Positions 21,958 to 33,686 of a DNA stretch of 57,374 bases are shown piece after piece. Both the position numbers and the translations under genes were made by a program. The stretch spans positions 1 to 57,374 of the forward strand of contig JACMNN010000002.1 of assembly GCA_014378555.1 (NCBI GenBank), in the 5' to 3' direction. A model generated the notes under the pieces. The model was not told the origin of the DNA. It did no database searches and was given only the letters and a program-made list of their open reading frames with translations. Numbering within the stretch: position 1 is the stretch's first letter; every line of letters starts with the position of its first letter. This DNA comes from Burkholderiales bacterium (GTDB lineage Bacteria; Pseudomonadota; Gammaproteobacteria; Burkholderiales; Casimicrobiaceae).

Positions 21958-23931
21958 CTACAGCGAGTCAGGCGCGGCTTTCGGCGTAGCCGCCGAAGCC
22001 GTAGCTTTTTGCGTCACCGAAGCTGGCGTGGTCGTATCCGCCGAGGTGGTGTCGCCCGCAACAACCGGAGCCGGGGTGTCAGATGACGAATCGTTGCCGC
22101 CGCTACCCGGCGTGTTGTAGGTTTTGACTGCCCGCACCGTGCGACCCGCCATGATGTCGGAGATCTGATCAGCGTCGATCGTTTCGTACTCCATCAGCGC
22201 GGCGGTCATCGCCTCAACCTGAGGCGCGTAATCCGTGAGGATTTTCGTTGACACAGCATATTGCTCGTCGATGATGCGGCGAATTTCTCGATCCACCGTT
22301 TGCATGGTGGTTTCAGACATGGTGCGTGTTTGCGTAACACTGCGGCCCAAGAACACTTCGCCTTCGTTGTCGGCATAAACCATTGGGCCGAGCACCTCGC
22401 TCATACCGTAACGGGTGACCATGTCGCGAGCAATTTTGGTTGCCCGCTCAAAGTCGTTTGAGGCGCCGGTGGAGATGTTTTTGACAAACAAATCTTCGGC
22501 GATACGACCACCGAACAACACGGCGATTTCAGTAAGCATTTGGTCTTTGTACAGCGAGATGCGGTCCCGTTCCGGCAACTGCCATGTCACACCCAGTGCG
22601 CGACCGCGCGGGATGATGGTGACCTTATGCACTGGGTCAGCCTTAGGCATTACCGTGGCGACAATCGCATGGCCCGACTCATGGTAGGCCGTGGCGCGCT
22701 TTTCGTCTTCAGACAGCACCATCGACTTGCGTTCGGCACCCATAAATATTTTGTCTTTGGCGCGCTCGAAATCGTCCATATCGACGAGACGCTTGTTACC
22801 GCGTGCAGCGAACAATGCAGCTTCGTTGACTAAGTTGGCAATGTCAGCACCCGAGAAGCCGGGGCAGCCGCGTGCAATGACGTGCGCCTTAACGTCAGCT
22901 GCAATTGGCACTTTACGCATGTGGACTTGCAAAATCTGCTCGCGACCACGAATATCCGGCAGTGGCACCACTACCTGACGATCGAAGCGACCGGGGCGCA
23001 ACAGCGCTGGGTCAAGCACATCAGGCCGGTTGGTCGCAGCGATAACAATTACGCCTTGCGAGCCTTCAAAGCCGTCCATTTCGACAAGCATCTGATTCAA
23101 CGTTTGCTCGCGCTCGTCATTGCCGCCACCGACACCTGCGCCGCGCTGGCGTCCTACCGCGTCGATTTCGTCGATAAAAATAATGCAGGGCGCATTTTTC
23201 TTCGCCTGCTCAAACATGTCGCGAACGCGAGACGCGCCCACGCCGACAAACATTTCGACGAAGTCAGAGCCTGAAATCGAGAAAAACGGCACCTTCGCTT
23301 CGCCAGCAATCGCCTTAGCAAGCAACGTTTTGCCGGTGCCTGGCGAGCCCACCAGCAAAACACCGCGCGGAATGCGTCCGCCCAGCTTCTGAAATTTGCT
23401 CGGGTCTTTTAGGAAGTCGACGACCTCGGTGACCTCCTCTTTGGCCTCGTCACACCCGGCGACGTCGGAGAACATGGTGGTGTTGTTGGTGTCGTCGAGC
23501 AACCGCGCGCGGCTCTTGCCGAAGCTGAACGCGCCGCCTTTGCCGCCGCCCTGCATCTGCCGCATCATGAATATCCACGCGCCGATCAGCAGCAATATCG
23601 GGCCAAACGAAAACAGCATCGATGACAGAAACGACTGCTGTTCTTCAGGTTTGCCCGAAAACTTGACGTTGTTTTTGATCAAGTCGTTGATCAAATCTTT
23701 GTCATACCCGCCAGGCACGTAGGTCGCTTTTTTGCCATCGCTGGTGCGGTATTCGATGTTGCGGCCTTCAATGGACGCCTCGCTTACCTTGCCACCACGC
23801 AGCTCTTCGATGAACGACGAGTATGCGACCGCGTCACTCTTGCGACTCGACTTGTCGAATTGTTGAACTACGGTGAGCACCACTAGGCCGATGACGACCC
23901 AGATACCAATGTTTTTGAGCATGTTGTTCAC
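21958..23931 (-). CDS. ftsH: ATP-dependent zinc metalloprotease FtsH
   Basis: A membrane AAA+ protease for membrane and regulatory proteins such as LpxC and sigma-32. Start chosen is GTG at 23931 ([15 protein letters not shown], 657 residues), seven bases after a GGAG; an upstream ATG at 23985 adds only unconserved residues. Two membrane segments (about 5-25 and about 105-125), Walker A GSPGTGKT, Walker [10 protein letters not shown], second region of homology and the zinc motif HESGHA are present. The C-terminus is a Thr/Ala/Pro-rich tail. The yfiR-like gene follows by 12 bp. Confidence 0.96.
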
Positions 23932-23993
23932 GCACGAACTCCTGAAGCCACTTGCCCCGCAACAGGCGGAACACGGCAGCCACACTTGTTACG

Positions 23994-24241: not shown

Positions 24242-24883
24242 CTAACGCAGCCCCGACGCCAATAAAAACACTTCGGCGCTGCGGTCTCTGGATGCATCTG
24301 GTTTTCTGCTGACGACAGTCTTGAACTGTAGCTTTAGCTGGCTGAAAAACGCTTCAAAACCAGGCCCTTGATAGGCCTTGGTGAGAAATTTGCCCTCGGG
24401 TTTTAAATGCTCCAGCGCAAATTCAGCGGCGAGTTCACATAAATAAATTGCGCGCGGCGAATCAATGGCGGCCACACCGGTCATGTTCGGCAGCATGTCG
24501 CTCATCACCAAGTCCACCTTGACTCCAGCGAGTTTTTCCGCGATCAAGTTCAGTGGCCCCGCCTCGCTGAAATCGCCCTGAATGAAGTCGACGTGGGCCA
24601 TGCCCTGCATCTCGAGCAGGTCAATGGCGATGATTTTTCCTGGACTTGTACCAGTGCCAATTTTTTTGCTCGCTACTTGACACCAACTACCGGGGGCGGA
24701 CCCCAGGTCTACGATCACGCTGCCCGGCTTGATTAAGCGATCTTTCTGGTCGATTTCGATCAGTTTGTAGGCGGCACGCGAGCGATAACCATCGATTTTC
24801 GCTTTTTGCACGTACGGATCGTTGACGTGCTCGTCAAGCCAGACTTGATTGGATTTATGACGTTTGCCACTGGGGTTGAGCAT
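24242..24883 (-). CDS. rlmE: 23S rRNA (uridine-2'-O) methyltransferase RlmE
   Basis: Methylates U2552 in the peptidyl-transferase A loop; also known as RrmJ/FtsJ. The 213-residue protein has the N-terminal rRNA-contact region (YVQKAKIDGYRSRAAYKL), the SAM-binding motif VDLGSAPGSWCQVA and the K-D-K-E catalytic residues, including Asp in DLVMSDMLPNMTG and Lys in LTKAYQGPG. It precedes ftsH on the same strand and diverges from yhbY, the classical arrangement. Confidence 0.96.
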   Translation of the reverse strand: MLNPSGKRHKSNQVWLDEHVNDPYVQKAKIDGYRSRAAYKLIEIDQKDRLIKPGSVIVDLGSAPGSWCQVASKKIGTGTSPGKIIAIDLLEMQGMAHVDFIQGDFSEAGPLNLIAEKLAGVKVDLVMSDMLPNMTGVAAIDSPRAIYLCELAAEFALEHLKPEGKFLTKAYQGPGFEAFFSQLKLQFKTVVSRKPDASRDRSAEVFLLASGLR

Positions 24884-25046
24884 GGGTTGAAGTTAAAGGG
24901 CTATGAAAACGGTGAGTTGAGTGACAAATTATCGACGTTGAGCCCCGTTTTGCGTTGATTAGACCCTCGACTCGCGCTTTATCGAGCTCAAGCGCGAGAT
25001 AATTAAGTTAATTTCGCCTTGAACGCAAAAATAAGAAAGCTACCTC

Positions 25047-26315
25047 ATGTCCGCGTCCCCGACCTCCTCCCTGTCCTCCAGCGCCCGTCGCGCGCTGCGC
25101 GCCGCTGCGCATCACCTCGATCCTGTCGTGATGATGGGCCAGCACGGGCTGACGCCCGCGGTGCTGCACGAAATAGATTTGGCGCTGACCGCACATGCGT
25201 TGATCAAAGTACGCGCCGGAAGCGATGAGCGCGAAATTCGCGATGGCTTACTTGCCGAAATTTGCGAAAAATTAAGCTGCGAAAGCGTGCAGCACCTAGG
25301 CAAATTGTTCGTTCTTTGGCGCAACGCTGATGGTGCAGGGAACCCAGACAAATCGGCCGAACAGGACGCCGCTGCGGTTAAAGCCAGCAACGACCCGCAT
25401 GCCGTCAAGGAACGCGGGCCACGTAGCAAATTGCCGAGCGAACGCGCAGCGGAGCGCGCCAACGCGGCGCCCGCTGCTCGGAGCGGCGGATATGCCTCTC
25501 GCGGCGGTCCACCGTCCGGCAATCGCGGTGCCCCCTCGGGTGGGCGAGGCGCGCCCTCGGGCGGTCGCAGCGACAGTGCAACCGGTCCGCGTTGGCGTTA
25601 TGGTGAAACGCCACCGGACGCCCCGCGTCGTGAAGGCTGGGCACCAAAAGATCGTCGTGGCGCAGCACGCTTTGGTGAAGGCGGTGACGATTCACGGCGT
25701 CGCGATAGCGGTTCAAGCTACGGCGCACCGCGTCCACGTACGCCAGGTGGTTACGCGGGTTCGTCTGGCTCGTCGGGTTCGGGCGGCGCATCGGGCGGGG
25801 GTGGTGGCGAAGGCTATCGTGGCGCCGCGCCTTCCGGTAGCCGCAGTGGCTACGGCGGCAATACCGGTGGCGGCAGCTACGGTGGCGATAACCGTGGCGC
25901 ATCGGGCGGTGGCGGCGGTGGATCGAGCTATGGCGGCCGCGGCGGCTCGAGCAGTTACGGCGGTCAAGGCGACGGCGCACCGCGTGCGCGTTGGGGCGAG
26001 CGGCGTGAACCTTCTCAGGGTGGCGGCGGCGGTGGTGGCGGATACGGTGGCGGCGGCGGCAATTCGGGCAGCAACTTCGGTAATGACCGGGGCGCTCCTG
26101 CGCCGCGCTCTACTTACAGCCGCGGTAGTGATGCGGGCGGCGGCTCAGACCGCGCGCCGCGCACGGGTAGCGGCGGCGGAGGCGGAGGCGGCGGCTGGGG
26201 CAATCGCGATGGCGTGACCGGCAAACCCTCGGGCTTTTCGCGAGGTGGCGCAGGCGGCGGAGCCGGCGGTGGTGCTGGCGGGGCCGCTCCGCGCGCTCGG
26301 CGCCGTTTCGGCTAA
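25047..26315 (+). CDS. yhbY: YhbY (CRM-domain) RNA-binding protein with very long Gly/Arg/Ser-rich tail
   Basis: The first ~97 residues are a normal CRS1-YhbY RNA-binding domain, with the GQHGL GxxG loop and the closing FVLWRN. The family binds pre-50S ribosomal particles. E. coli YhbY is about 97 residues; this protein is 422. After a charged linker (98-145) the remainder is low complexity: RGG, GGRG, SSYGG and GGYGGGGG blocks, resembling RGG/FUS-type disordered RNA-binding tails, and ends ARRRFG. The tail stays in one frame with no stop, codons favour GGC/GGT, and it diverges from rlmE as in other genomes. It is therefore a real extension, probably grown by repeat expansion. Confidence 0.9.
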   Translation: MSASPTSSLSSSARRALRAAAHHLDPVVMMGQHGLTPAVLHEIDLALTAHALIKVRAGSDEREIRDGLLAEICEKLSCESVQHLGKLFVLWRNADGAGNPDKSAEQDAAAVKASNDPHAVKERGPRSKLPSERAAERANAAPAARSGGYASRGGPPSGNRGAPSGGRGAPSGGRSDSATGPRWRYGETPPDAPRREGWAPKDRRGAARFGEGGDDSRRRDSGSSYGAPRPRTPGGYAGSSGSSGSGGASGGGGGEGYRGAAPSGSRSGYGGNTGGGSYGGDNRGASGGGGGGSSYGGRGGSSSYGGQGDGAPRARWGERREPSQGGGGGGGGYGGGGGNSGSNFGNDRGAPAPRSTYSRGSDAGGGSDRAPRTGSGGGGGGGGWGNRDGVTGKPSGFSRGGAGGGAGGGAGGAAPRARRRFG

Positions 26316-26327
26316 ATCCTGCTTCGC

Positions 26328-26570
26328 ATGCTCGCGCTGCGTCCCAACTGCGAATGCTGCAATCGCGACTTACCTAACGAGTCAACAGACGCACGCATTT
26401 GCACTTTTGAATGTACGTTTTGTGCGAATTGCGCGGCGGCGAAACTCGGCAATGTGTGCCCCAACTGCGGCGGCGAATTGGTAGTTCGGCCGCGACGCCC
26501 CGCGAGCAAGCTCGGCAAATTTCCCGCATCAATCGAGCGGATTTACAAGCCGTTGGGGTGCGCTGCTTAG
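26328..26570 (+). CDS. DUF1272 small cysteine-rich protein
   Basis: An 80-residue protein matching DUF1272, with eight cysteines arranged as CECC, CTFECTFCANC and CPNC, which suggests one or two bound zinc ions. The function is not known. It starts 12 bp after the yhbY stop, probably in the same transcript, and ends convergent with the gluconokinase gene. Confidence 0.82.
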   Translation: MLALRPNCECCNRDLPNESTDARICTFECTFCANCAAAKLGNVCPNCGGELVVRPRRPASKLGKFPASIERIYKPLGCAA

Positions 26571-26657
26571 TTTTATTTTGTGGCTTGTGGCAGCGGCGTT
26601 ACAGCCGCTCAACGTGCCTATGCGAATCTAAATTGCGGCTCAACTGCTTCTACGGAC

Positions 26658-27215
26658 TCAATCCGGCGAATGCCTCTGCAAGCCGCGCAACGCCGCATCG
26701 ACCTGCTCTGCTGCACTCAACGCAATCGAAATCGTCATCGCATCCGCGGGCCGCTCGAGCGCCTCAAACTGACTGCGCAGCAACGACTCTGGCATGTAGT
26801 GATTGGGCCGCGCCCGCATTCGCGCGGCGATCAATTCAAAACTGCCATCAAGAAAAATCCAATGCGCTTGCGCTAGGTCCGCGCTAATCGCAGCACGATA
26901 GTTTTTCTTGAGCGCGGAACAGGCGAGCACCACCGCTTCGCCGGCAGCGCTGCGCGTTCGTAACTCGCGATTCAACGCGGAAAGCCAGGGCGCGCGGTCG
27001 ACGTCGCTGAGCGGCATTCCAGCGCGCATTTTGGCGACGTTTGCTTCGGGATGGAAATCGTCGGCATCGAGAAACGTTGCGTTCAAGCGCTCAGCCAAAG
27101 CGCTGCCCAACGTAGTTTTTCCACAGCCTGAAACCCCCATCACAATGACCGGGGAAACTGCTCCGCTGCCGTGAACCCAACTATTCGCATCGACGCCCTC
27201 AAACGCGTTTTGCAT
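26658..27215 (-). CDS. gntK: Gluconokinase (GntK/thermoresistant type)
   Basis: Phosphorylates gluconate to 6-phosphogluconate. The 185-residue protein has a P-loop GVSGCGKTTLGSALAERL at about residues 28-45, the substrate segment DADDFHPEANVAKMRAG and the LID region. It has a slightly long N-terminus before VIVMGVSG. It lies seven bases after the 6-phosphogluconate dehydrogenase gene, so the two form a gluconate-to-pentose phosphate operon. Confidence 0.93.
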   Translation of the reverse strand: MQNAFEGVDANSWVHGSGAVSPVIVMGVSGCGKTTLGSALAERLNATFLDADDFHPEANVAKMRAGMPLSDVDRAPWLSALNRELRTRSAAGEAVVLACSALKKNYRAAISADLAQAHWIFLDGSFELIAARMRARPNHYMPESLLRSQFEALERPADAMTISIALSAAEQVDAALRGLQRHSPD

Positions 27216-30786: not shown

Positions 30787-31584
30787 CTACATCTGCTTGA
30801 ACAAATGCGAGAACGGTCGACTTACTTTGAGTTGCTCTTTGTGATCTTTGACCTTCACCGTGGCATCACCGCGAAAATCGCGGGTGACGCCGGCAATGGC
30901 GTTGACGTTAACAATGGTGCCGCGATGAATTTGCCAGAACACATTTGAGTCCAGCTCGTCCAACAGTTCACGCAATGGTTTACGGATCAGTGCTTCTTCG
31001 GTGGCGGTAACCACGCGCGTGTACTTTTCGTCCGAGTTGAAAAACAGCACGTCTTTGACATCGATCAGCTTAAGGCTTGCGCCCAACGAAGCCTTAATCC
31101 AGCGCATGTATTCGACCGGCGCGCCGCCCGCCGCCGCGCCGCGCATTTCGCGTTTGAGCGTAGCGATGAGTTGCGACAGATTGTCTGGCAGCGATGGCGC
31201 CTCCTGATCGTCGGTTTCGATGCGCTCTTTCAGCCGCTCAATGGTGGTGATCAAGCGGTCTTCCTGAATCGGCTTCAGCACGTAATCAACCGCGCCGCGA
31301 TCAAAGGCGGCCACAGCGTACTCGTGATACGCGGTGACAAAAACGATATGTGTGTCTGGGCTTTCTGCAGCGATCCGCGAAGCGACCTCAAGCCCGGTCA
31401 ATTCGGGCATGCGGATGTCGAGAAAAGCGACCGTTGGTTTGAGTGTGGTGATCAATTCGACCGCGGCCAGGCCGTGCTCTGCCTCGCCGACCACGGTCAG
31501 TTCAGGCCACAATTTTTCCAGTTTTTTCTTCAGGAATAGGCGCAGAACGGCTTCGTCCTCCGCCAACACCGCCGTCATTGTCAT
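30787..31584 (-). CDS. LytTR-type response regulator
   Basis: A 265-residue DNA-binding regulator paired with the kinase just upstream. Start taken at 31584, where ATG overlaps the kinase stop codon (ATGA); a longer frame upstream lies inside the kinase gene. The receiver domain has the acidic pair EDE at 9-11, phosphoacceptor Asp56 (VAFLDIRMPE), and conserved Thr and Lys (FVTAYHEYA, YVLKPI). The LytTR DNA-binding domain spans about 155-260 (MRWIKASLG, FWQIHRGTIVNVNAI). Targets are unknown; such pairs often act on envelope or fimbrial genes. Confidence 0.92.
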   Translation of the reverse strand: MTMTAVLAEDEAVLRLFLKKKLEKLWPELTVVGEAEHGLAAVELITTLKPTVAFLDIRMPELTGLEVASRIAAESPDTHIVFVTAYHEYAVAAFDRGAVDYVLKPIQEDRLITTIERLKERIETDDQEAPSLPDNLSQLIATLKREMRGAAAGGAPVEYMRWIKASLGASLKLIDVKDVLFFNSDEKYTRVVTATEEALIRKPLRELLDELDSNVFWQIHRGTIVNVNAIAGVTRDFRGDATVKVKDHKEQLKVSRPFSHLFKQM

Positions 31585-33686
31585 TCCCATTCGTTGACCC
31601 ACTTTCCTTCGTTGTCTTTGAGTTGTCCGCTCGCTACGATGACGACATCGATCAGCCACCAGATACCGAGGCCACCCAGAGTAAATAGCATAGCCAAAGC
31701 GGTGCCCGTTCGGCCCACATAAAACCGATGCGCCCCGACAAATCCGAGCAGCAGCGTCAGAATCAGCGCGATGGCGCGCGAGTAGCGCGAGGTGGTCGCG
31801 TCGCGCGGCTTGCCCGACAAAGGGTGTGCATGTGTGCCGGTTTCACCGTTGTAGCGGCGACGGTCGTCGCTGTTTAAACGCACGATGCGGCGCCCCTGAC
31901 TGTCGCGAAACTCGCGCGTGACGATCCACACCACATCAAGGACGACCCACATCAAAAGCGGTGCGGTGAATACCGGCACACCGCCCGACAAAATACTCAG
32001 CGTGCCCAGCACCGTCTGCAATGCGCCCGAACGCGTGCGCCCCACATAAAAGCGATGCACGCCAAGCCAACCAACAAACACCGCCAGCAGCCCCACAGTT
32101 TGCATGGTGAACGGAGACACGCCGCTGGCGAGTTGCTCGGCTTCGGTCATCTCCTCAACCACTTCTGGCACCACCGTCGGCACCCGCAAAATCGCGCGCA
32201 CGCCACTTGGCGCGTTGGGCTCCACCGACAGTTCGCCCGCCGTTCCATAGAGCATTTTGAGGCGTTCGCGGGTGTTGGCTATGCCAATGCCGGTGCCGCC
32301 AGTTTCAGCGCCGCCCAGGCCGAGCCCGTCGTCGGCAACCAGCACCTCCAACGTGTCTGACGCGCCATTGATGCCCGGCAGCACGCGCGCATTGATGGCG
32401 ATGGTGCCGCCCTCTTTTTTTGGCTCCAGCCCGTGCTTGATGGCGTTCTCCACCAATGTGGCGATCATCGTCGGAGGCAGCGCAATCGCGTGCAACGCCA
32501 GCGGCACGTTGATCACTGAGCGCAACCGGTCACCCATACGAATTTTCAGCAAATCAAGATACGCGCGCACCACCTCGATTTCGCGGCCTAGCGTCGAGGT
32601 GGTTTCGCGCATGGTCGGCATCGCCGCGCGCAAATACGAGATCAGCCGCTCAAGCATGACGCCGGCTTGCGGCGGATCGATCTCCTGCAACGCCTGCACA
32701 TGAGCCAATGTGTTGAATAAAAAATGCGGCTCGACTTGCGCGCGCATCACCATCAGCCGCGCTTCGGCGAGTTGCCGCGCGTACGTCTCAGAGCGTTCAC
32801 GCGACTCAGCAATCACCACGCGCTGCTCGCCACGGGCGGCGCGTCCGGCGAAAGCGCGCGCCACCAGCAGCAGAAAAAACAGTGTCATCAGCACCAGCAA
32901 CGAAACGCCACCGGCGATGAGCTTTTGCGCGTCACGGTGTACGGTGCTGGTGATGAGCGCTCGTGTGTCGGGATCGAGATTGATCGCCCCTAGCACCGGA
33001 TGATCTTCGACATTGATCACCGCCTGCGCTGTTTTACCGAATACATTGAAGGTGATGACCTTGTCTTTGCCGCCGTCCGCTGTGGCTCCAAATTCGCTGA
33101 TGCGACCCTGCATTTCCTGCAACTGCGAGACGCTTTCCTGCATTGCTTCGAGCTTGGTGGCGAACTGCTCGATACTGCTGATCGCCTCGGGCGAATCGAT
33201 GCCTCCGGTCAGTTTGCCCGCCACCTGCTCCAGCGCGCGGCTGGATTTCTTAATGTCATCCTGCTGCGCATTGATCAACGTCTGCAATTCAACGATGCTT
33301 TTAACCACGACCTCGCGCTTGGGCACCGACAGTTCACGTTCAACCTCACCGATCGCGTCATCAATTTCTTTGACTGACACCGGATCGTTGGTAATGGCGC
33401 GAAAGCTCAACAGGCCAGATCGCGCGCGCTCCAAGAACTGCTTTTGTACCGCGACCTTGAACGCCTGCTTTGCCGCGGCCGAATGAAGCATCGGCTGCAA
33501 TCGCAGCGAATCAAATGGCACTGTGAATAAGGCCACCGAAATCAGCACGATCAAACCGCCCACCACTAGCCGCCACCAAGGTGTAGATCCGAAGCCTTTC
33601 CACACACGCTGACCCAACGGGGGTGGCGCGGTGATCGGCATCGGCGCAACGCGCTCAGCGGCAGGTGGAAGGGATGTGGGGTTCAT
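31581..33686 (-). CDS. LytS-type sensor histidine kinase with two C-terminal TM2 domains
   Basis: A 701-residue membrane kinase. First membrane segment at about 38-57, a periplasmic mostly helical sensor region to about 255, a second segment at about 257-277, a His_kinase (LytS) domain with His321 (EPHFLFNTL) and a HATPase domain (NAIKHGLEP, ADDGLGLGG, GIGIANTRERL). After residue 525 come two copies of the TM2 domain, at about 529-590 and about 637-690, each with the hallmark GxHRFYVGR motif (GVHRFYVGRTRSG and GAHRFYVGRTGTA). The response regulator gene overlaps its stop codon. Confidence 0.9.
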   Translation of the reverse strand: MNPTSLPPAAERVAPMPITAPPPLGQRVWKGFGSTPWWRLVVGGLIVLISVALFTVPFDSLRLQPMLHSAAAKQAFKVAVQKQFLERARSGLLSFRAITNDPVSVKEIDDAIGEVERELSVPKREVVVKSIVELQTLINAQQDDIKKSSRALEQVAGKLTGGIDSPEAISSIEQFATKLEAMQESVSQLQEMQGRISEFGATADGGKDKVITFNVFGKTAQAVINVEDHPVLGAINLDPDTRALITSTVHRDAQKLIAGGVSLLVLMTLFFLLLVARAFAGRAARGEQRVVIAESRERSETYARQLAEARLMVMRAQVEPHFLFNTLAHVQALQEIDPPQAGVMLERLISYLRAAMPTMRETTSTLGREIEVVRAYLDLLKIRMGDRLRSVINVPLALHAIALPPTMIATLVENAIKHGLEPKKEGGTIAINARVLPGINGASDTLEVLVADDGLGLGGAETGGTGIGIANTRERLKMLYGTAGELSVEPNAPSGVRAILRVPTVVPEVVEEMTEAEQLASGVSPFTMQTVGLLAVFVGWLGVHRFYVGRTRSGALQTVLGTLSILSGGVPVFTAPLLMWVVLDVVWIVTREFRDSQGRRIVRLNSDDRRRYNGETGTHAHPLSGKPRDATTSRYSRAIALILTLLLGFVGAHRFYVGRTGTALAMLFTLGGLGIWWLIDVVIVASGQLKDNEGKWVNEWE

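Follow-up and report, generated by a model that had tools for sequence, protein, structure and literature searches.

Gene organization of the locus

The window, namely the whole stretch of 57,374 nucleotides that was analysed, carries an intact frame of 422 codons whose product joins an N-terminal CRM domain to a C-terminal tail of 330 residues. An earlier note on this DNA had described a CRM/YhbY-type protein with a long, disordered-looking tail, and the frame, the domain (residues 9–92) and the tail found here agree with that description. The features at the locus are as follows.

21958–23985, minus strand: FtsH-like protease beyond rlmE (translation judged by eye, in the window only)
24242–24883, minus strand: RlmE-type FtsJ 23S rRNA methyltransferase, divergent neighbour of the CRM gene (Pfam FtsJ, E 2e-54)
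25047–26315, plus strand: whole ORF of the CRM-domain (YhbY-type) protein with C-terminal tail (ATG to TAA, 422 aa plus stop)
25071–25322, plus strand: CRM domain, residues 9–92 (Pfam CRS1_YhbY, AlphaFold pLDDT, Foldseek)
25137–25148, plus strand: GQHG, residues 31–34, the GxxG loop of the CRM domain (G31 and G34 invariant in a nine-sequence alignment)
25323–26312, plus strand: disordered-looking Arg/Gly/Ser-rich tail, residues 93–422, 330 residues (composition, selection, pLDDT)

The top NCBIfam match of the product of 24242–24883 was RlmE, under the cut-off of that model (238 of 269 bits). RlmE was found at 44 of the 53 other loci of the GTDB family and was divergent from the CRM gene in all 44; at the remaining 9 it was not found within the fetched stretch. 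Within the window's own genus, the divergent rlmE is present in all 16 other members. The divergent rlmE–ftsH neighbourhood of YhbY occurs in the window, with rlmE recognised by family search and ftsH by eye; yhbY of E. coli has the same layout. The FtsH-like frame is listed with a GTG start and has an odd N-terminus, and an internal ATG (MLKNIGIWV) looks a likelier start. At 24700–26700 no promoter-like site was found, and the one terminator-like site lies on the other strand inside the domain-coding part, while shuffles give 3.0. Rfam found no RNA family at the CRM gene; three tRNAs and an SRP RNA are located elsewhere in the window.

Family membership of the CRM protein

The protein belongs to the CRM domain family. 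Residues 9–92 match Pfam CRS1_YhbY (PF01985) with an E value of 2.3e-22 and 79.5 bits, the gathering cut-off being 27. AlphaFold, run with the nine-sequence alignment (which includes the window's own protein and also served for the GxxG check and for the class profile), predicted the domain to be well folded, with pLDDT of 86–92 as means of 10-residue blocks over residues 11–90; the mean of the whole-protein model was 52.7. Foldseek with the domain model gave 546 matches at E ≤ 10, and all five rows at E ≤ 0.001 were 1jo0 (twice), 1ln4, 1rq8 and 8a22_Xh. A sequence search led to the same four molecules. The match of the predicted model to 1jo0 and 1ln4 places it in the IF3-C/Alba-like fold.

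E. coli YhbY (1ln4), H. influenzae HI1333 (1jo0) and S. aureus SAV1595 (1rq8) also consist of a CRM domain, with 30–39% identity (Foldseek) and TM-scores of 0.74–0.91 normalised by the target. Their chains have 98–104 residues in all, whereas the window protein adds a 330-residue disordered tail. The contrast that the earlier note had drawn with the E. coli family of about 97 residues is borne out, the NCBI model of the E. coli-type protein having 97 positions. The fourth molecule, mL127 of the Polytomella magna mitoribosome (8a22 chain Xh), resembles the CRM domain with a sequence E value of 1.9e-4, a Foldseek E value of 3.8e-5 and a TM-score of 0.50 on the target; it has 143 residues and is part of the mitoribosome. 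The main text of the 8a22 structure paper (PMC9576764) contains no mention of mL127, CRM or YhbY, and a literature search for mL127 found nothing about it.

The window's own genome (G000; 3.55 Mb, 274 contigs, 87% complete) has no second match to the whole protein at E ≤ 0.01, and PF01985 has a single match in it, likewise one in each of the 16 other genus genomes. The cut-off of NCBIfam TIGR00253, the YhbY equivalog (78.5 bits), was missed, with 60.8 bits for the whole protein and 64.8 bits for the domain alone. Among three relatives, L040 passes (80.0), and L036 (75.7) and L038 (70.6), which belong to the same GTDB family, fail. We therefore file the protein in the CRM family and call it a YhbY orthologue on the strength of its synteny, its single copy and its fold.

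Composition of the tail and selection on it

The tail contains 106 Gly, 41 Ser, 41 Ala, 40 Arg, 25 Pro and 11 Tyr, and its 46 Arg plus Lys against 26 Asp plus Glu give a net charge of +20. A tail dominated by Gly, Arg, Ser and Tyr, as the earlier note had put it, is broadly what we found, except for Tyr, whose share of 3% is below those of Ala (12%) and Pro (8%). The numbers of about 43 Arg and a net charge near +22, as well as the short motifs described below, were absent from that note. The repeats RGG and YGG occur 3 and 5 times in the window protein. The tail looks disordered: in the AlphaFold model the block means of pLDDT are 33–66 from residue 91 on, the secondary structure past this residue is limited to a weak helix at 100–115, and the composition falls on the disordered side of the charge-hydropathy line. 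No other window frame of at least 100 codons has such a Gly-rich stretch (60 residues with at least 28% Gly).

The tail is under purifying selection in the 25047–26315 frame. In six close genus pairs the dN/dS of the tail was 0.073, 0.056, 0.062, 0.139, 0.128 and 0.221, and that of the domain, in the same order, was 0.015, 0.006, 0.031, 0.157, 0.011 and 0.029; these values are rough, with silent divergence near saturation in some pairs and pN lowered by protein-based gap placement, and in two pairs one tail is truncated where its contig stops (G018 and G019; 168 and 76 codons). The tail is less constrained than the domain in five of the six pairs, and the contrast is not uniform because in G006/G009 the domain value of 0.157 exceeds the tail value of 0.139. 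The pN/pS of the tail was 0.10–0.42 in frame, versus 1.28–4.28 for the same aligned blocks in the other two frames, and between the window and G016 third positions take 131 of the 169 tail substitutions. Since the alignment was made on protein, gaps are whole codons and gap length itself is no evidence.

A frameshift or an assembly error had been named beforehand as what might undo the tail, and neither accounts for it. A frameshift is ruled out by the codon-position and alternative-frame tests in the six pairs, and an assembly artefact by the long tail in 17 of 17 genus genomes, which were independently assembled. The tail in G005, an assembly of a single 4.5-Mb contig, has 258 aa. In G018 (contigs C32 and C5) and G019 (C127 and C234) a contig ends in the Gly-rich tail and the C-terminal motif is matched on another contig; assemblies do break in the tail, though not in the window.

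Distribution of the tail in related genomes

PF01985 was matched in 17 of 17 genus genomes and 54 of 64 family genomes. Compared across these relatives, the tail is long throughout the genus (15 complete tails and two contig-cut ones, G018 and G019), while the tails of the other family genera are mostly shorter, Gly-poor and basic. Median length in the genus is 287 aa over the 15 complete tails (range 181–340), and Gly averages 26% of their residues (7–40%); the other six genera supplied 35 complete tails of 37–246 aa, with genus means of 6–12% Gly. By share, Lys and Pro are higher than in the window's genus in all six, and Arg in five. In all seven family genera the net tail charge is positive, with genus means of +15 to +29. 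RRR stands within the last 20 residues in 47 of the 50 complete family tails, versus 4.0 expected by shuffling, so the C-terminal Arg cluster extends wider than the genus. The contig-cut tails (G018 and G019 in the genus, L024 and L055 in other genera) were left out of all composition and motif counts. The lowest Gly contents among the 15 complete tails, 7% and 16%, belong to two small genomes, G014 (L008; 2.6 Mb) and G020 (L030; 2.5 Mb), as if their spacers shrank or never grew.

In the order, PF01985 was matched in 272 of 300 genomes, and of the 263 that lie outside the family, 50 had their tails measured. Tails of 5–98 aa were seen in the 30 with the best scores, and of at most 115 aa in the 20 picked for long frames among the matches listed; the tail of 115 aa, the longest of the 50 measured, has 17% Gly and two RGG. 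For L133, L135, L142, L144 and L145, with tails of 11–25 aa, the domain end was set by eye. Among loci L065–L094 and L133–L145, many short CRM proteins end in a PKIxLP-like sequence about 10 residues past the domain (by eye), which is a different tail type. When the class was searched with the nine-sequence profile, 122 of 185 genomes had a match, and among the rows, the window's own aside, none reaches the profile end without stops.

Arginine number and conserved motifs

Across the 15 complete genus tails, the Arg number is nearly constant (mean 43.1, range 35–56, CV 0.12) and has a rho of −0.10 with tail length. The net charge (mean +22.3, CV 0.11, rho −0.21) and the Pro number (CV 0.14, rho −0.21) behave alike. 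What rises with length is Gly (rho 0.91), Ser (0.84), Ala (0.79) and Tyr (0.74; n = 15). These correlations ignore the kinship of the genomes; when three close pairs are reduced to a single genome each (n = 12), rho is −0.06 for Arg, −0.30 for charge, −0.13 for Pro and 0.94 for Gly. Outside the genus, Arg number rises with tail length (rho 0.82, 35 tails). Within the genus, Tyr ranges from 0 to 11, YGG from 0 to 7 and RGG from 0 to 7. The FUS-like part (SYGG, GGYGG) is thus the variable part, and Arg number, charge and motifs are better conserved.

Five short motifs were recognised in the tail.

25413–25433, plus strand: motif A, RGPRSKL, residues 123–129 (relaxed pattern RGPRxKL, 14 of 15 complete genus tails)
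25629–25661, plus strand: motif B, REGWAPKDRRG, residues 195–205 (pattern EGWAPxxRR, genus form REGWAPxxRRG, 13 of 15)
25989–26006, plus strand: motif C, RWGERR, residues 315–320 (relaxed pattern [KR]W[GT]xR, RWGxRR, 15 of 15)
26205–26237, plus strand: motif D, RDGVTGKPSGF, residues 387–397 (relaxed pattern TGKPxGF, 10 of 15)
26289–26312, plus strand: motif E, PRARRRFG just before the stop, residues 415–422 (pattern PR[AT]RRR[LFM]G, genus form PRARRRLG, 14 of 15)

The order A–E is constant in the genus, and the spacing, filled by Gly/Ser spacers, is variable. By these patterns all five motifs occur in nine of the 15 tails, the window's among them, and one further tail brings those with D to ten. 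G014 (7% Gly) is without A, B, D and E, G013 without B and D, and G007, G008 and G010 without D. Shuffled tails gave at most 0.34 of 15 for any motif pattern (0.34 for motif C), and the 35 tails from outside the genus had none of the motifs. The alignment of the same sequences was already known when the patterns were drawn up; a k-mer test, which was blind, gave six 5-mers common to at least 10 of the 15 tails versus none in 200 shuffles. The median difference at four-fold sites in the domain is 0.51 (0.19–0.71), saturation being near 0.65, which makes shared ancestry alone a weaker explanation of the motifs.

On the DNA level, the pattern of motif B was found in 15 of 17 genus genomes (16 sites; backward control 0), and that of motif E with the first two stop bases in 16 of 17 (17 sites; backward control one). 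Silent bases inside both motifs vary between species. By contig and position the sites sit at the CRM gene; G007 and G012 have a single additional site each, and further off-gene sites in G018 and G019 lie on other contigs. Between the window and G016 the dN/dS of motifs was 0.032 versus 0.075 for spacers, and motifs had the lower value in all six pairs, which reuse genomes and include the window in three; spacers alone gave 0.057–0.350 over the six pairs.

Possible functions of the tail

E. coli YhbY plays a role in 30S and 50S maturation according to PMC12457515, which also reports epetraborole hypersensitivity of a strain lacking yhbY and its rescue, in part at least, by a plasmid copy. Fixed arginines and anchor motifs that elastic Gly/Ser spacers hold apart point to a tethered, multivalent arm for holding RNA, and we consider with moderate confidence that the tail is most likely such an arm on a pre-50S assembly factor. 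The gene would then encode the cell's CRM-domain, YhbY-type factor of large-subunit assembly, and the CRM domain, to judge from its family, would dock onto the 23S rRNA of immature 50S particles. The anchors would be the roughly 43 Arg, the Arg cluster at the extreme C-terminus and the Trp/Arg motifs, and the Gly-rich stretches would be flexible spacers that set the reach of the anchors. In this way the arm may retain the factor on pre-rRNA that is loosely folded and contribute to chaperoning this RNA. RNA binding by the tail, which the earlier note had also proposed, is a reasonable expectation from the charge and the family; the pre-50S particle would be its site and chaperoning its action.

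This reading builds on computed features, namely the frame, the domain, the predicted fold, the selection on the tail, the motif order and the near-constant Arg number and charge. It is supported by the CRM domain as seen in both sequence and fold, the divergent rlmE, the selection on the tail, stronger in motifs than in spacers, the flat Arg number and charge beside a Gly number that grows with length, the ordered motifs, the RRR near the C-terminus of most family tails, the positive tail charge of every family genus and the Gly-rich tails of two DEAD-box helicase-like proteins and an RRM-like one in the same genome, described below. Against it stand the missed cut-off of TIGR00253, the motif loss in G014 and, with fewer motifs absent, in G013, G007, G008 and G010, and the pair G006/G009, in which the domain has a higher dN/dS than the tail.

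The conserved Trp motifs could equally bind a protein. A tail whose Trp/Arg motifs serve to bind other proteins (ribosomal proteins, an RNase or a helicase), with RNA contact secondary, appears somewhat unlikely to us and is offered tentatively. Such docking would suit the Trp in motifs B and C, the mixed polar motif D, the better conservation of motifs than of spacers, and Gly spacers acting as linkers. However, every motif is net positive in the window protein, as read from its sequence, and positive charge is common to the other genera, which fits RNA better.

The earlier note had called the tail RGG/FUS-like. The tail is indeed long, selected and Arg/Gly-rich, but its FUS-like part varies within the genus, and neither the many RGG nor the conserved Tyr stickers of an RGG/FUS-like tail were found. 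We regard it as unlikely that the tail is a condensate driver, in which Tyr/Arg contacts would phase-separate the protein with RNA as in FUS/RGG proteins. The window protein itself, with 11 Tyr, 40 Arg, RGG and SYGG stretches, would suit such a role, and bacterial condensate proteins with disordered regions have been published (Rho, PMC13269538; SSB, PMC12143593). Yet across the genus the expected stickers Tyr, YGG and RGG are poorly conserved while the Arg number is kept, and with Tyr varying from 0 to 11, condensation rests on a less conserved feature.

Further proteins with Gly-rich tails of the GGYGG type occur in G000, by eye two DEAD-box helicase-like and one RRM-like, at L096/L097 (C135), L099 (C138) and L101 (C251). 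The scan covers 38 loci found by two Gly-rich DNA patterns, which gave 8 and 39 sites versus 16 and 64 for the same patterns read backwards; being no commoner than these controls, the patterns served purely to find proteins. We think it quite improbable, as a speculation, that the YhbY of this genus is the scaffold of a nucleolus-like ribosome-assembly compartment, in which it would gather pre-50S particles together with the Gly-rich helicase and RRM tails, spacer length tuning the condensate and Arg remaining fixed.

That the tail arose neutrally, as a by-product of slippage during replication of GC-rich codons, is largely refuted and is now very hard to maintain. In favour of slippage are the small indels that separate close relatives, tandem tracts of the GGC type, albeit weak (scores up to 56), and a raised local GC. 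The dN/dS over the six pairs, 0.056–0.221 for the tail and likewise low in the spacers, and the near-constant Arg number speak against it, and slippage alone is ruled out by the selection on spacers. Hardly any credence is left for a G-rich coding strand that acts as RNA G-quadruplexes (autoregulation) with an incidental peptide, in the manner of the RGG-repeat/RNA G-quadruplex coding link described for human genes in PMC11789052, as there is no three-G motif, two-G motifs (7 versus 8.4) and GGG runs (21 versus 20.5) are not above synonymous shuffles, and third codon positions diverge freely.

Related proteins and significance

CRM proteins are known, and so are disordered tails on bacterial RNA-binding proteins. 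Gly-rich RRM proteins also join a bacterial RNA-binding module to a Gly-rich tail. A folded RNA-binding module with a tail is likewise found in Burkholderia Hfq2, whose C-terminus is Gly-rich, and in RhlE-like helicases with a divergent disordered one (PMC7074383); both differ from the window protein in their RNA-binding domain. The fold of eukaryotic Alba proteins is distantly related to YhbY, and RGG motifs co-occur with Alba domains; these proteins differ in having an Alba rather than a CRM domain, and the available part of PMC11621453 describes no such YhbY tail. Among the titles and first lines of abstracts listed by literature searches on YhbY and CRM, mostly without subscription papers, no CRM protein with such a tail appeared.

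One group of uncultured bacteria has this long Arg/Gly-rich tail with conserved short motifs. Comparisons of disordered tails usually go by composition. Here, a natural series of 15 tails keeps Arg, charge, Pro and mostly the motif order, while length varies almost two-fold via Gly, Ser, Ala and Tyr, and the series is a ready-made experiment on what a disordered arm conserves. What such a tail does for a ribosome-assembly factor in bacteria becomes directly testable.

Other genes in the window

A DUF1272 gene at 26328–26570 (plus strand) begins 13 bases past the stop of the CRM gene, and DUF1272 is near the CRM gene in six of the 16 other genus loci as well, within the fetched stretches. At 30787–33686 (minus strand), a LytTR response regulator adjoins a histidine kinase (Pfam His_kinase), and this kinase has TM2 domains in two stretches, the best at residues 633–681.
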